In this document: piece after piece, positions 33,201 through 42,200 of the stretch
Position numbering within the stretch: position 1 is the first letter of the stretch
Layout of the letters: every line of letters starts with the position of its first letter
Origin: Theodoxus fluviatilis
Taxonomy: Eukaryota > Mollusca > Gastropoda > Cycloneritida > Neritidae
NCBI GenBank assembly: GCA_034096865.1
Contig: JAWQFJ010001145.1
Location: 85,001-149,000, forward strand
DNA length: 64,000 bases
Direction: 5' to 3'
The notes under the pieces: generated by a model
What the model was told of the DNA's origin: nothing
Databases searched by the model: none
What the model saw: the letters and a program-made list of their open reading frames with translations, nothing else
Program-made: the position numbers and the translations under genes

Positions 33201-36200
33201 AAAGTCAAACTAATCTTCAATCACTACTTCGATAGTTTTTAATTCTCTACAGTCTGCTGTTGTTTTCTTAAGGATTAAATAAGGATGTAAGGAATATTTG
33301 CTCCTTTGCTGAAACGCTAGGCCTCGCGTTCCGAACACCATCCATTCATTCATCGTTGTTTTTTTCTCAGTTTATCCAAGTTTTATGGTCCATCATACTA
33401 ATTTGAGTCAAATAAAAGACTGACTGAAACTGTGAAAGTAAAACTAAAACTAAAACTAGTAAAAGTAAACAGCCCTGTGTCATGTGTGGTTTCAGTCATA
33501 AATCAGTAAATAATTGATAATTGATGTGAGCATATTTTATTTGTTACAGATGATGCCCACTTCCAGCAAATGAAGTCTGCTTTCACAGCAACTGGAAGAG
33601 GTAGACCATTGCAACTTCAGGTCGTATCACTAACCAGAAGCTGGTTCTGAAGAAGAAGTCTTGCTTCTTGATTGTCACAGGCACTCTGCTAGCACTGTAC
33701 AACCGCCTGCGGCAGTTCTTTGGTGCGGAACCGCTTGAGAGACTACCCTCTCTTTTTCTTGAAGAAAGGACACAGCCACAGGGCAGAAAGCAGCTGCATT
33801 TTGACTCTGAGGAGGAGGAGATGCATGAAGAAGAGGAGATCAGTAGTGAAGAAGAGAGTGAGGACTTTGACTTTGAGTCAAAGTTTGACTTTGAGAAAGA
33901 CTTCAAGTTTGAGAGAGTGGGGGAGATCATTGCTGTCTATTACTTGGAGGACTTCTATATTGGTGAAGTGACGTCAGTTCTGAGTGAGGAGGAGGGGACA
34001 GTGAACTTTCTGGAATCTGCAAGAGGCACCAAGGATGTGTTCCGCTGGCCTAGCAGGGCTGACTGCTGCAAGATTCCATCATCAGTTGTTTTTGCTCGCA
34101 ACATTGCACTTGCACCATATTCTTCTTCTGGCAGATCATTCACAGTGGAATCTCCAGCAAACCTGCCTGCCATGTACACCAGTTTTAAGCAGTACTTGAT
34201 TGACAATTTAGTTTGAGTCTTTGAATGACTTTGAAGTAGGGAGATGAATTTGACAATCGCAACTTGTCCCACTGTGCGCTTTGCAAGAATTTTGTTTAGT
34301 ACATAGAACTGTGAACAGTATTTGTAAATATCTTCCTTGATTTAACACATATGTGTGAAGATAACAGTATAACTAATCTACACACCAAAAATCATGGCTG
34401 TATTCCCAATAGTTTCTGAAATATTTCAATCTGAAATGTGGTTTCCCCCTAAATTTCCGTCGTTTCCACTGAAGATCATGGAGAATTTGTACATACTTGT
34501 GTGTGATTTTTTCAAACATTGCACTGTCTACAAAGCTTACATTGTAATCTGTCTATACACCAAAATTGGTGGTTGTATCTTCAATAGTTTCTGAATTATT
34601 GGCAATAAAGTAGGTAGCGGCAGCCCCCCCCCAAAGCGCCCATCAATGTGCAAAATCTCTCATTTTTGGTCATTTTCTAAAGCTAATATCTCAGCTACTA
34701 TGGCACAGATTTTGTTTTACCTTTCACCCAATAAAAGACGAATCTTTCATCTTTTGATTGCAGTTGGTTTTATTGCGATTGATTAGAGGTGCATTTCCCG
34801 CGAATAAAAAGAGTAGACCATGTGAAACGCCGCTCGCGTCATTTTGTCCAGCCGCGAACGCAATGGCTTCTCAACGCGGATTTCGCCTTGTGTCTTTGCT
34901 GGCCTCGCGTGGTGCTGACACGTGCACTACACAGATAAATTTAGTATCAAAATGATCACGTGAGCACACTCTTTCTAACGGTGCCATTACCAATTTTTAA
35001 AACCAAAAACTGTGGATGCGGCTTCAATTCTTCTACAAAGTATGGTAGTTTTTCGTAGATTCTGAAGAAAATACGCAATATTTCGCGACTTAACGGAGAG
35101 AAAAATAAAGAAGAATCTATTCTCGTTCGAATGAGATACGGGGCTAATTTATTCATGACGTGTCAGCATCACGCGAGCCAATGAAACAGACTACCCATTC
35201 ACGAAGTTCAAATATCCGACTACGATTTCGTTCACAACATGGCGGACGAAGAAACCGAGTGCGATCCTTCGATTGTGAGCGAAGATTCTTGCGAGATCGG
35301 TAAGTCTGCAATCATTTTCTTGCATTTCAATCTTAAATAATCATTTTAGAAACACGTCTATGATAGTTTTGTGATCAAAATGCGAAATACCGTGATGAAA
35401 TAAGTGAGTTGAACCGAGTGCTCCGTGGACGTCGAGTTCGTATTTTTTTCTCGTACCGGAAGTGCTGATTTCATTCGATTGATCAACATTTTCTTCAAAA
35501 TCCTTGAGTTCTTAGTGATACAATCACATTTAAACTTGAAGATCAATTATTTATAAACATGTCTTATTTAATTTATGGCAGTAAATTATGAGATTAACTA
35601 GGAAATCCTCTGATAGTAAAACAAGGGGAGGTAATTTTTCACGCACTGACGTAGGCTTGTGAAACTGTATTGTAGTGTCACTAAGTTTTAGTTCTGGAAG
35701 TAAAGAACTTATTATTTAGGCGTGGTTTATTAAATTCGCTCAACAAATAATTGTTTGAAGCAAGTTTAAACCTCATAAGTATTTGTTTTCAATATATCAA
35801 AATGTTATTATTAATATTAATTATTAATATTATCTTTTGTTTTTTTTGTGCAGATGATACAGTGTGTCAGCAATTAAAGGCAGTGTTTTTTGCAAGAGGG
35901 AAGGGTAGACGCCCTAACCTTCCCATCGTCCCCCTGACAGACAAACTGTTGCTGCATATTCTTCAACTTAAAGAAGAAGGAGGAAAGACTTTTGATGAGG
36001 CAGCATTCTTCCTCAACAAGCTGTTCCCAACATCACCTGTTTGGAGACTGAGGTCCTTGCTGGTGTCGGCAAAAGCCAAACAGAGACTAACTCCTCCTCC
36101 ACCTTCTGCTCCAGCTGTCACACTCCAGCTGCATGACCTTGGACCTTTTTTGCAGGGCATAGATAGGGTAACCATTCTGGAAGGACTACCTGTGTCTCAG

Positions 36201-39200: not shown

Positions 39201-42200
39201 CTGTCAATCGGAGAGGTCAAGAAGGCGGCTGTGGCGACTCTCTTGCAGAAAATATGCATTGGCCTGTTGGAGATGACCAAACGGCAATTGGGTGACTTTC
39301 TTCCTGAAGGACGCTATTTCAATGTCCAGGACCCTGCTCTGCGAGCTAAACTGGAGCACTCTCACATCACCAACCTCGTGAGTGAGGAAAACTTTGCTGA
39401 CTTGGATTTTTCTTTGTTCAAGCGAAGAAATTCAACTCTGCACCATCACTCCACCATGAATATGCTCAAGAGGAACAGGTCCATGTCAACGTGGCTTGCA
39501 CATAAATCTGAAGCTGATCAGCAGCAACTCCTTGAAATGTGCAGCAAAAAGGCTGCATCCTTGAGGGAAAAGCATGTCGCGTTGGAGAAAGAGGCGGTGA
39601 GGAGGAAAAAAGACATGTTGCAGGAGGCTCGCCAGAAAAAGGACGCTGCCGATGAAAGACAACGACAAAAGGCAGGTTTTTTGTATGACTGATTGTATGC
39701 ATTTCAACCATCGTATGAAGAAGTATGCATTTGAAACAATATTAAAGTTCTTTAGGGTTGTTATTAATGTTATTTCACCAAAAACAATTCATAATGTAAT
39801 TTGATGTATGAATCTGTTTTTTTCCAGGTACTTTCAGTGATGGAAGACTTGCGCATCCACCAGGGACCATGTACCACTGCTGCTGACATCAACAGAATGC
39901 TAGCAGCCTACAGGACCGATGGAGGGCTGAAGAAGGCACTGAGAGCTGAAATCTTGTTCCAGAAGCTAGTGTTAGCAAAGTCTTCGCCCCTCCTGAGGGT
40001 CTCTGGCTCGTCTTTGACGCTGGCCAACAGACTGCTCGCATTTTTGGGGGAGCAGGCTATGGATAGGCTGCCACCGCTTCACCATCCTGACGGGAATCCA
40101 GCAGCCAAGCGACCTCGCACGCAGCTGCTTGAAGAGGAGGAAGAGCCGGAGGAGGAGTCCGAAGAAGATGAAGATGAAGAAGACAGGCAAGCAGTGGCGG
40201 TCACCGTATGTGAACATTCTTTCAAGTTCTCACGGCATGGAGAAATGATCGCTGTCTACTATGAGGACACCTTCTACATTGGAGAGGTGATGGATATCAC
40301 TGGGGAGGAGGAGGCTGTTGTGAACTTCATGGAGCAGGCCAAAGACAGCTCTGTATTCAGATGGCCATCAAAAGAAGACCGTTGTGCGATCGCAGCTGAC
40401 GTCGTCTTTGCCGGCAACCTAGTTCTTGCTCCTTCTTCCTCTTCAAGTCGATCCTTCATAGTTGAATCACCTCAGAACCTGCCAGAACTGTACAGAGCCT
40501 TTAAGGCATATCTCATTGAGAACTTGTTGTAATCTTTTCGTTCACCGGACATCAACTACCAGTACCACCCACCCACCCCCTCGCCCATTTCTAGTTTTCG
40601 CCCACCTACCTTGCTCAGTTGCTGTGTGCAATAACTGTTGAAATATTAAGAATAAGCTCATGCCCCCCTCCCATGTTGATGATCATCCATTACCAAGATA
40701 CACAAAATTGAGTCAACGACAATTTTTATGTCTGGTATGTCAAAATTCTGGATTTTGTTGTAATTTTATGTATTTAGTCACCATGATTTTGGTCAGATTT
40801 TATTTCATCAACTTCAAACTTTGCAGGATAATAGAAACACTTGAACTCTTTCATGTTCCCAAATTTTATGTAAATCCTTCGAATAGTTTAGAAGTTATTG
40901 CGTTTTTACTGTTTTGTTATTGTCTAAGTGACGGACGCTGGCCAAATTGAGGTTTTCCGCTACTTTGAGAACCTATATCTCCAAATCTTACCAAAGTAAT
41001 GCTGCAAAGAAAATTGGGTGTGGTCTACATATATAGTTGTACAATATTGGTCAATTTCAATCTAGTGCTGTATATAGTTTCTGATTTATGAAGTCCCAAA
41101 GTGGCCTTGTTGAGCAGTTTTGACGCGTTTGAAATCGTGGTTTTTGTGAACTTTGCAAGATCACTGCAAGAGCAAATATTATCAGAGACTGTTGAAACTA
41201 TGCTTTTTTCTATACCTGTGTGTAGAGAAAACATTCACAACATTTGAACCTTTTAGCTGTTTAGTAAGCACCTGGTATATGCAGCCAAAGTACCTATATT
41301 TTCGTGTTTCATTCAACGCCGCGTCGGTGTATATCTTTAAACGCCCATATCTCTGTAACTAATTATCTGATTTACTTACTCTTTTTTTTTGTTTTGCTTC
41401 TGTTGTTATGGAGATTAAGAAAATATCAATTTAATTAACATTTGTTCAATTTAAAATTTTCACTGCCGCTACCTAAATAAAGTGACAAAAAATGTACTTT
41501 TTCCTGTTGTTCCGCTTAACAAATTCGTGTTTTTGTCATTTGTTTGGCTCTTTTTCTCCCAAAATATGAAACTAGACTGGCTGAAAAAAAAGAGACTTAT
41601 TCTACACAAACATGTTTGGCATTTCTGAAAGTTCCAGACTGCTCCTGTACATATTGTATGAAATGTGATGACCGAAAGTTGCCCCCTCGGCAATTTTGTG
41701 ATCGGAGGCGCGAAAACATGTATACTAAAATATCAATATCTCATGAACTAATAAAGATATCCACTTACTTTTTTTGGTGTTATGCTTGTATTGTGTTCTT
41801 TTAAAATATCACAAAACATACACTCTCACTTAAAAATAAAATTTTGACTGCCCCTACCTAATAAGATTATGATAAAATGGAAGGGCAGGAACCCGATCAA
41901 GCAGTACAGGAGAGGGTCAGTGTGCTGAATTTTCATGTCAAGTTGTCCCTCAAATATTGCTCACTAGTCTTGTTTTTTTTTTCTTGCTCAGATGGGTTCT
42001 CAAAGCTTGTCTGATATGTCCGAATTTATTCCTGTGTATTTTCTAAGTGTAATTTGTAGGTTTTAGTATCATCACTAAATTTTTCTTCAATTTTCAGGAT
42101 ACATTTTTTTTCAATCATGGCACCTTATGCAAATGAGCTTGTTTAGGAAAAGTTGATTTTGTGTTCAATGTGTTCCTTGTCCTTTTTCCTACCATAGACT

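Follow-up and report, generated by a model that had tools for sequence, protein, structure and literature searches.

The 64,000-nucleotide stretch of the Theodoxus fluviatilis genome analyzed here (the window; contig JAWQFJ010001145.1, positions 85,001 to 149,000 of the forward strand, called contig C1138 below) contains a DNA transposon, element B, and two further members of its family, elements A and C (Table 1). A preliminary description made from the sequence alone had assigned to B perfect 13-bp inverted ends, perfect flanking repeats AATAAAG, and a six-exon gene. Both kinds of boundary are present as stated: the ends are inverted at 13/13 positions (TAGGTAGCGGCAG at 34611-34623, with the exact reverse complement at 41463-41475), and the 7-bp repeat is perfect. 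The six-exon transposase gene is plausible at 35239-40532, although this copy is not intact owing to one frameshift in exon 2, near 36445. The unoccupied site of B is represented by two elements elsewhere in the genome, C977 and C3060, with a single one-mismatch copy of AATAAAG and agreement at 117/119 positions.

Element B lies within element A, which is an older, deleted family member and presumably non-autonomous. Its ends are TAGGTAGGGGC, and its 3′ part is ~96% identical to the C977 and C3060 elements. The preliminary description had recognized both A and C; each was found to be flanked by a perfect 7-bp duplication, that of A, ATAAGAT, being absent from the earlier account. Element A in turn interrupts a gene piece matching PF13843 (DDE_Tnp_1_7), which we take to be piggyBac-type. 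The left piece scores 35.8 bits in Pfam (profile positions 2-132); if A and one 7-bp copy are removed, the frame runs on and the score reaches 53.5 bits (profile positions 2-150). The nesting thus has three levels, B inside A inside the PF13843 gene, and the empty sites, i.e., C977/C3060 for B and the rejoined PF13843 frame for A, support the insertion of both elements. The 3′ end of element C is located 4.9 kb past the window and differs at 2 of 13 end bases; its core protein is 33% identical to that of B.

The exon 2 core of B has 73 matches in the genome. The elements C977 (C977:234689-240425) and C3060 (C3060:181632-187367) are situated at different loci, with the duplications AACAAAT and CTCAAAG, respectively, and their 3′ parts share 99.8% identity across 826 bp. 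Each contains a single open frame of 1,231 codons (1,223 codons read for C3060), so that the intron richness proposed in the preliminary description does not hold as a family trait. The near identity of copies that retain long open frames suggests that these elements were active recently. Adjoining the right duplication of the C3060 element is a copy of the 3′ region in inverted orientation, 88% identical (L083 833-1330), the two being tail-to-tail neighbors. Another element, C2247:102412-108740, has a core 30% identical to B, ends TAGCAATGCCCG matching at 12/12 positions, and the 7-bp duplication CATTTTG; it is the only element with TAGCAATGCCCG ends in which the duplication was looked at.

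End motifs were counted across the source assembly (965 Mb), with the same pattern read backwards as the control. The TAGGTASSGGCAG end pattern occurs 206+209 times versus 20+21 in the control, i.e., approximately tenfold more often, its CC form 76+79 times versus 3+5, and its GC form 84+88 times versus 4+3; for the TAGCAATGCCCG motif, the counts are 81+91 versus 3+9, with at least 24 convergent pairs in addition to C2247 in the list of places. These controls rule out a chance match of the end pattern. From the first 100 places listed for each motif form (TAGGTASSGGCAG, CC, and GC), 49 pairs of convergent, exact ends of one motif variant, up to ~13 kb apart, were chosen by eye; one mixed pair (C1171), places further down the lists, and TAGGTAGGGGCAG ends were left out. 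An exact 7-bp duplication flanks 40 of the pairs, one has 7 bp with one mismatch, one has exactly 8 bp, two run into N (L024 and L045), and five have no duplication (L009, L017, L021, L033, and L040). Excluding pairs with N, the flanking 7-mers of the same element match in 40/47 cases, compared with 3/2162 among pairings of left and right flanks taken from different elements. Because these copies were selected by their first 13 bp, the likeness of those bases is not evidence on the ends; selection by the exact end pattern played no part for the ends of C2247 or for the 3′ ends of C977, C3060, and C. Individual mapping gave exactly 7 bp in six of six elements (A, B, C, C977, C3060, and C2247), which together with the end pairs makes the 7-bp stagger characteristic of the entire lineage within the sample studied. 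The proposal of a transposon family with 7-bp duplications is therefore supported genome-wide, and the check for copies with duplications of other lengths, regarded beforehand as grounds for rejecting it, did not refute it. Twenty-three of the 49 elements are 2.32-2.35 kb long. In tblastn searches with the B protein, 41 gave no match, six matched over a short stretch only (L014, L018, L049, L051, L054, and L055), and two contained most of the transposase gene (L052 and C516); because so few carry B-protein matches, most of the 49 elements look non-autonomous. Element B belongs to a large cut-and-paste DNA transposon family, as directly supported by exact ends, 7-bp duplications, empty sites, and near-identical copies at different loci, along with the target preference and the fold match described below.

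Among 46 exact 7-bp duplications, T is found at position 2 in 30, A at position 6 in 38, both in 25, G at position 7 in 33, and C at position 1 in 18, yielding a roughly palindromic, strand-symmetrized consensus CTNNNAG. Read in contig orientation, a final G is more frequent in the duplications than an initial C, whereas a palindromic preference in randomly oriented copies predicts equal frequencies; this may be chance. Hermes prefers the 8-bp target nTnnnnAn (PMC10368747). The motif nTnnnAn is the 7-bp counterpart of this preference, and would be expected if the points attacked by two symmetric active sites were one base pair closer to each other. For transposition, we propose that a transposase multimer would pair both TAGGTASSGGCAG ends and excise the element, probably leaving hairpins on the flanks by analogy with hAT elements (PMC6900584). 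The two 3′ ends would then attack a CTNNNAG target site with an offset of 7 bp, and repair of the gaps would yield the 7-bp duplication. Copies with internal deletions, A and the 2.3-kb family among them, may be moved in trans.

The proteins of the family comprise approximately 1,200 residues. A structure was predicted for P0002, the residue numbers of which are matched to codons of B in Table 1, from an alignment of 31 of 41 related proteins; Littorina supplied the closest named relatives. The putative domain order is a basic N-terminal region, a coiled coil, a hAT-type RNase-H core (Asp, Asp, C..H, all-helical insertion, Glu), and a Tudor/SH3-like domain; one relative, P0060, is named Tudor domain-containing in UniRef. 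The coiled coil, anticipated in the preliminary description, is reflected in weak coiled-coil-type matches. Residues D71, D144, C175/H178, and E442 were reported to be invariant among the 31 relatives. In the model, the 298 residues from the second Asp to the Glu include an insertion that is all helix, so that the RNase-H DDE core shows the hAT trait of a long helical interruption ahead of the Glu, as well as the hAT motif order D, D(N/R)A, C..H, the latter with an hhalign register of low probability. The DGT..MSDRA..CNAH block is likely the catalytic core, and, judging from the model, catalysis would involve D71, D144, and E442; any function of the coiled coil or the Tudor-like domain is putative.

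Table 1. Coordinates of elements A, B, and C and of their parts within the window
Feature	Position	Strand	Remark
Element B	34611..41475	+	6865 bp
Left terminal inverted repeat of B	34611..34623	+	
Right terminal inverted repeat of B	41463..41475	-	
Left target-site duplication of B, AATAAAG	34604..34610	.	Perfect 7 bp; empty site in C977 and C3060
Right target-site duplication of B, AATAAAG	41476..41482	.	Perfect 7 bp
Exon 1 (start codon)	35239..35299	+	GT border
Exon 2 (N-terminal region, coiled coil, first two proposed catalytic Asp, C..H motif)	35854..37770	+	
Exon 3 (helical insertion)	38076..38233	+	
Exon 4 (helical insertion)	38514..38672	+	
Exon 5 (end of insertion, proposed catalytic Glu)	39019..39675	+	
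Exon 6	39838..40532	+	Acceptor 39838, not 39828; frame stays open
Coiled-coil region of exon 2 (approximate)	36551..37090	+	Weak coiled-coil-type matches
First proposed catalytic Asp codon (DGT), D71 of P0002	37316..37318	+	End of strand 66-72 (model)
Second proposed catalytic Asp codon (SDRA), D144 of P0002	37535..37537	+	After strand 138-143 (model)
C..H motif CNAH, C175/H178 of P0002	37628..37639	+	Aligned with C..H of hAT proteins
Third proposed catalytic codon, Glu, E442 of P0002	39384..39386	+	N-terminal end of helix 439-454 after insertion (model)
C-terminal Tudor/SH3-like strand-rich domain (approximate)	40220..40440	+	Strands between 680 and 753 of P0002 model
Element A, internally deleted, interrupted by B	31733..41860	+	Own sequence 31733-34610 and 41483-41860
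Left target-site duplication of A, ATAAGAT	31726..31732	.	Perfect 7 bp
Right target-site duplication of A, ATAAGAT	41861..41867	.	Perfect 7 bp
Transposase gene remnant in A, C-terminal part	33605..34216	+	Open reading frame; 48% amino acid identity to B_C residues 800-997
PF13843 (DDE_Tnp_1_7) gene piece, interrupted by A	31188..31732	+	Frame resumes at 41868
Element C	60306..64000	+	Runs on to window coordinate 68854 (contig C1138:153854); 8549 bp
Left target-site duplication of C, CTATTAG	60299..60305	.	Second copy at contig C1138:153855-153861, perfect 7 bp

Fold prediction, suggested as a check in the preliminary description, produced a clear match to Hermes that spans the insertion domain and exceeds the entry ranked after it by 6 to 8 Z units; the agreement of E442 with Hermes was derived from the end points of this match only, without viewing coordinates. 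For profile comparison, 20 of 55 hAT proteins gathered via a hAT family of the same genome were combined. The program hhalign placed DGT, SDRA, and CNAH onto DGS, CDNA, and C..H of the hAT profile (E 0.005, probability 7%). With insertions removed, the score was 38.5 (57%), compared with a mean of 16.0 and a maximum of 27.5 for 40 shuffles and 16.7 for the reversed profile; scored without shuffles, the RNase-H half alone reached 30.4 (27%) and the full core 33.6 (9%). Predicted fold and profile alignment thus back the earlier suggestion of a DDE-like protein with a distantly hAT-like DGT...MSDRA...CNAH core. The hAT family of the same genome (L064/L065) shares the host and the hAT core motifs with the B family but has 6-bp duplications (CCTCTG and TTGTAT, in both copies looked at) and, in L064, a PF05699 (hATC) domain, found with the same library. 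Several of its copies contain a 727-codon open frame.

Domain searches in Pfam covered the complete match lists for B, the C core, four relatives, and the L090 frame, as well as 25 of the 44 families matched by the 31 relatives. Neither BED nor hATC was found in either set; specifically, the N-terminal piece of B and the L090 frame gave no match to an N-terminal BED zinc finger, and none of the 150 genome places scored and listed for PF05699, out of 698 candidates, is located on contig C1138. Likewise, no THAP or P-element domain was matched in these proteins, and the complete lists contain no transposase family apart from a match of the C core to MULE, which lies below the cut-off (E 0.083). 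Overall, Pfam and NCBIfam returned only weak, chance-like, or coiled-coil-type matches. One PDB sequence search returned nothing, and the best 60 of 145 matches in another were again weak, chance-like, or coiled-coil-type. Two peptide patterns each in viral and prokaryotic contig collections revealed no confirmed relative. The family is too divergent to be recognized by domain databases. A strong match to a named superfamily, which the preliminary description had regarded as evidence against a new family, is therefore lacking by sequence in the Pfam and NCBIfam lists and present by predicted fold, to Hermes. No prior description of an animal family of this kind was found in the literature, with Repbase and Dfam lying outside that comparison.

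Taken together, the B family very probably works like a hAT transposon and by descent represents a divergent lineage of hAT-like type, separate from this genome's bona fide hAT elements. Several observations weigh against this assignment: the missing BED and hATC matches, the low hhalign probabilities (7%, 9%, 27%, and 57%, depending on the cut), and a Glu region that is out of register in hhalign both alone (21.2; shuffle maximum 27.4) and in the combined cut. Moreover, the Glu was placed without coordinates in a protein model that is itself a prediction, the duplication is 7 bp rather than the 8 bp of hAT (8 bp in 1/49 pairs), 5/49 pairs lack a duplication, and 7 bp with T2/A6 would also fit Galileo of the P superfamily. 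Further differences from Hermes and other hAT elements are the coiled coil, the Tudor-like C-terminal domain, and the length of ~1,200 residues versus 612 in Hermes. We do not assign the family to hAT in the strict sense, given that neither hATC nor BED nor an 8-bp duplication emerged among its traits. Lineages with 5-, 6-, and 7-bp duplications (hAT5, hAT6, and hAT7) have been described within hAT (PMC12730594); hAT7 of rust fungi, assigned to hAT by transposase similarity near Ac and Tam3, has 7-bp duplications and sets a precedent for the origin of this length within hAT. Twenty families described there carry TET/JBP genes (PMC12730594), and no other paper on hAT7 transposons was among the matches listed. 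As described, hAT7 resembles the B family in its 7 bp and hAT-type transposase, but is fungal. The earlier argument that 7 bp is atypical of hAT and other superfamilies is thereby weakened, given 5-7 bp in hAT, 7 in Kyakuja, 6-7 in Dada, 7 in Galileo, and 6 in the local hAT family.

Alternatively, rather than being a deep hAT branch, the family may form a separate superfamily that shares a C..H RNase-H ancestor with hAT and evolved its insertion independently, as P, Kolobok, Dada, and KDZ may have done, a reading that we consider possible but doubtful. It concerns rank and descent, is compatible with a hAT-like mechanism, and overlaps in probability with the hAT-like assignment. The missing transposase, BED, and hATC matches, the coiled coil and Tudor-like domain, the low hhalign probability, and the retention of 7 bp across families of ~30% protein identity argue for it, whereas the Hermes match across the insertion, a target preference that follows Hermes, and the existing hAT lineages with 5, 6, and 7 bp argue against it. 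Elements of the P superfamily (P element, Galileo, and THAP9-like) are characterized by a THAP domain, a GTP-binding α/β insertion, and 8-bp duplications. With Galileo, which has 7-bp duplications with the palindromic consensus GTAGTAC (PMC2775673) and belongs to this superfamily (PMC4168063), the range becomes 7-8 bp, into which the B family falls; GTAGTAC also fits nTnnnAn with T2/A6, so that target preference alone does not decide the family. Membership in the P superfamily is nevertheless very unlikely, as the B proteins match neither THAP nor P-element families, although a THAP domain was detected elsewhere in the window, their modeled insertion is all helix, and Hermes, not P, is present among the 50 fold matches listed, an absence that is no proof. 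A Dada or Kyakuja (KDZ) element has hardly any probability. Dada shares with the B family duplications of 6-7 bp, introns, and animal hosts, among them oyster and polychaete, and has a DxxH motif (PMC3706591), and Kyakuja has 7-bp duplications (PMC12730594). By these descriptions, however, characterized Dada families target small RNA genes, as opposed to 46 diverse 7-mers here, and have DxxH with 176 residues from the second Asp to the Glu, as opposed to CxxH and 298; Dada also has N-terminal CCCC and C-terminal CCHC zinc fingers (PMC3706591). Kyakuja ends are CA..TG without inverted repeats, whereas those of B are 13-bp inverted repeats starting with TAG.

Outside the three elements, the window contains two Mutator-like transposase fragments matching PF20700 (24416-25315, minus strand, E 1.3e-13; 56977-57558, plus strand, E 1.5e-24), a THAP domain (PF05485) at 839-1342 on the plus strand, possibly of a P-type element or a THAP gene, and a 19-bp tandem repeat array at 45358-46126 with 41.6 copies. 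No tRNA genes were found in the window, and Rfam gave nothing at gathering thresholds.

Transposase dimer geometry determines the stagger between strand attacks, so that an enzyme resembling Hermes but with a near-constant 7 bp would offer a direct test of how this spacing is produced. The many copies, and proteins exceeding 1,000 residues from several invertebrate phyla, have no annotation beyond uncharacterized, and a defined family would correct gene catalogues. Should the family represent a new animal lineage of cut-and-paste transposons of superfamily rank, the sister group of hAT, with a near-constant 7-bp stagger, a coiled coil, and a chromatin reader-like Tudor domain in place of the 8-bp stagger, BED, and hATC, which we regard as conceivable though rather improbable, this lineage would span molluscs, annelids, nemerteans, and crinoids and escape the domain databases now in use.

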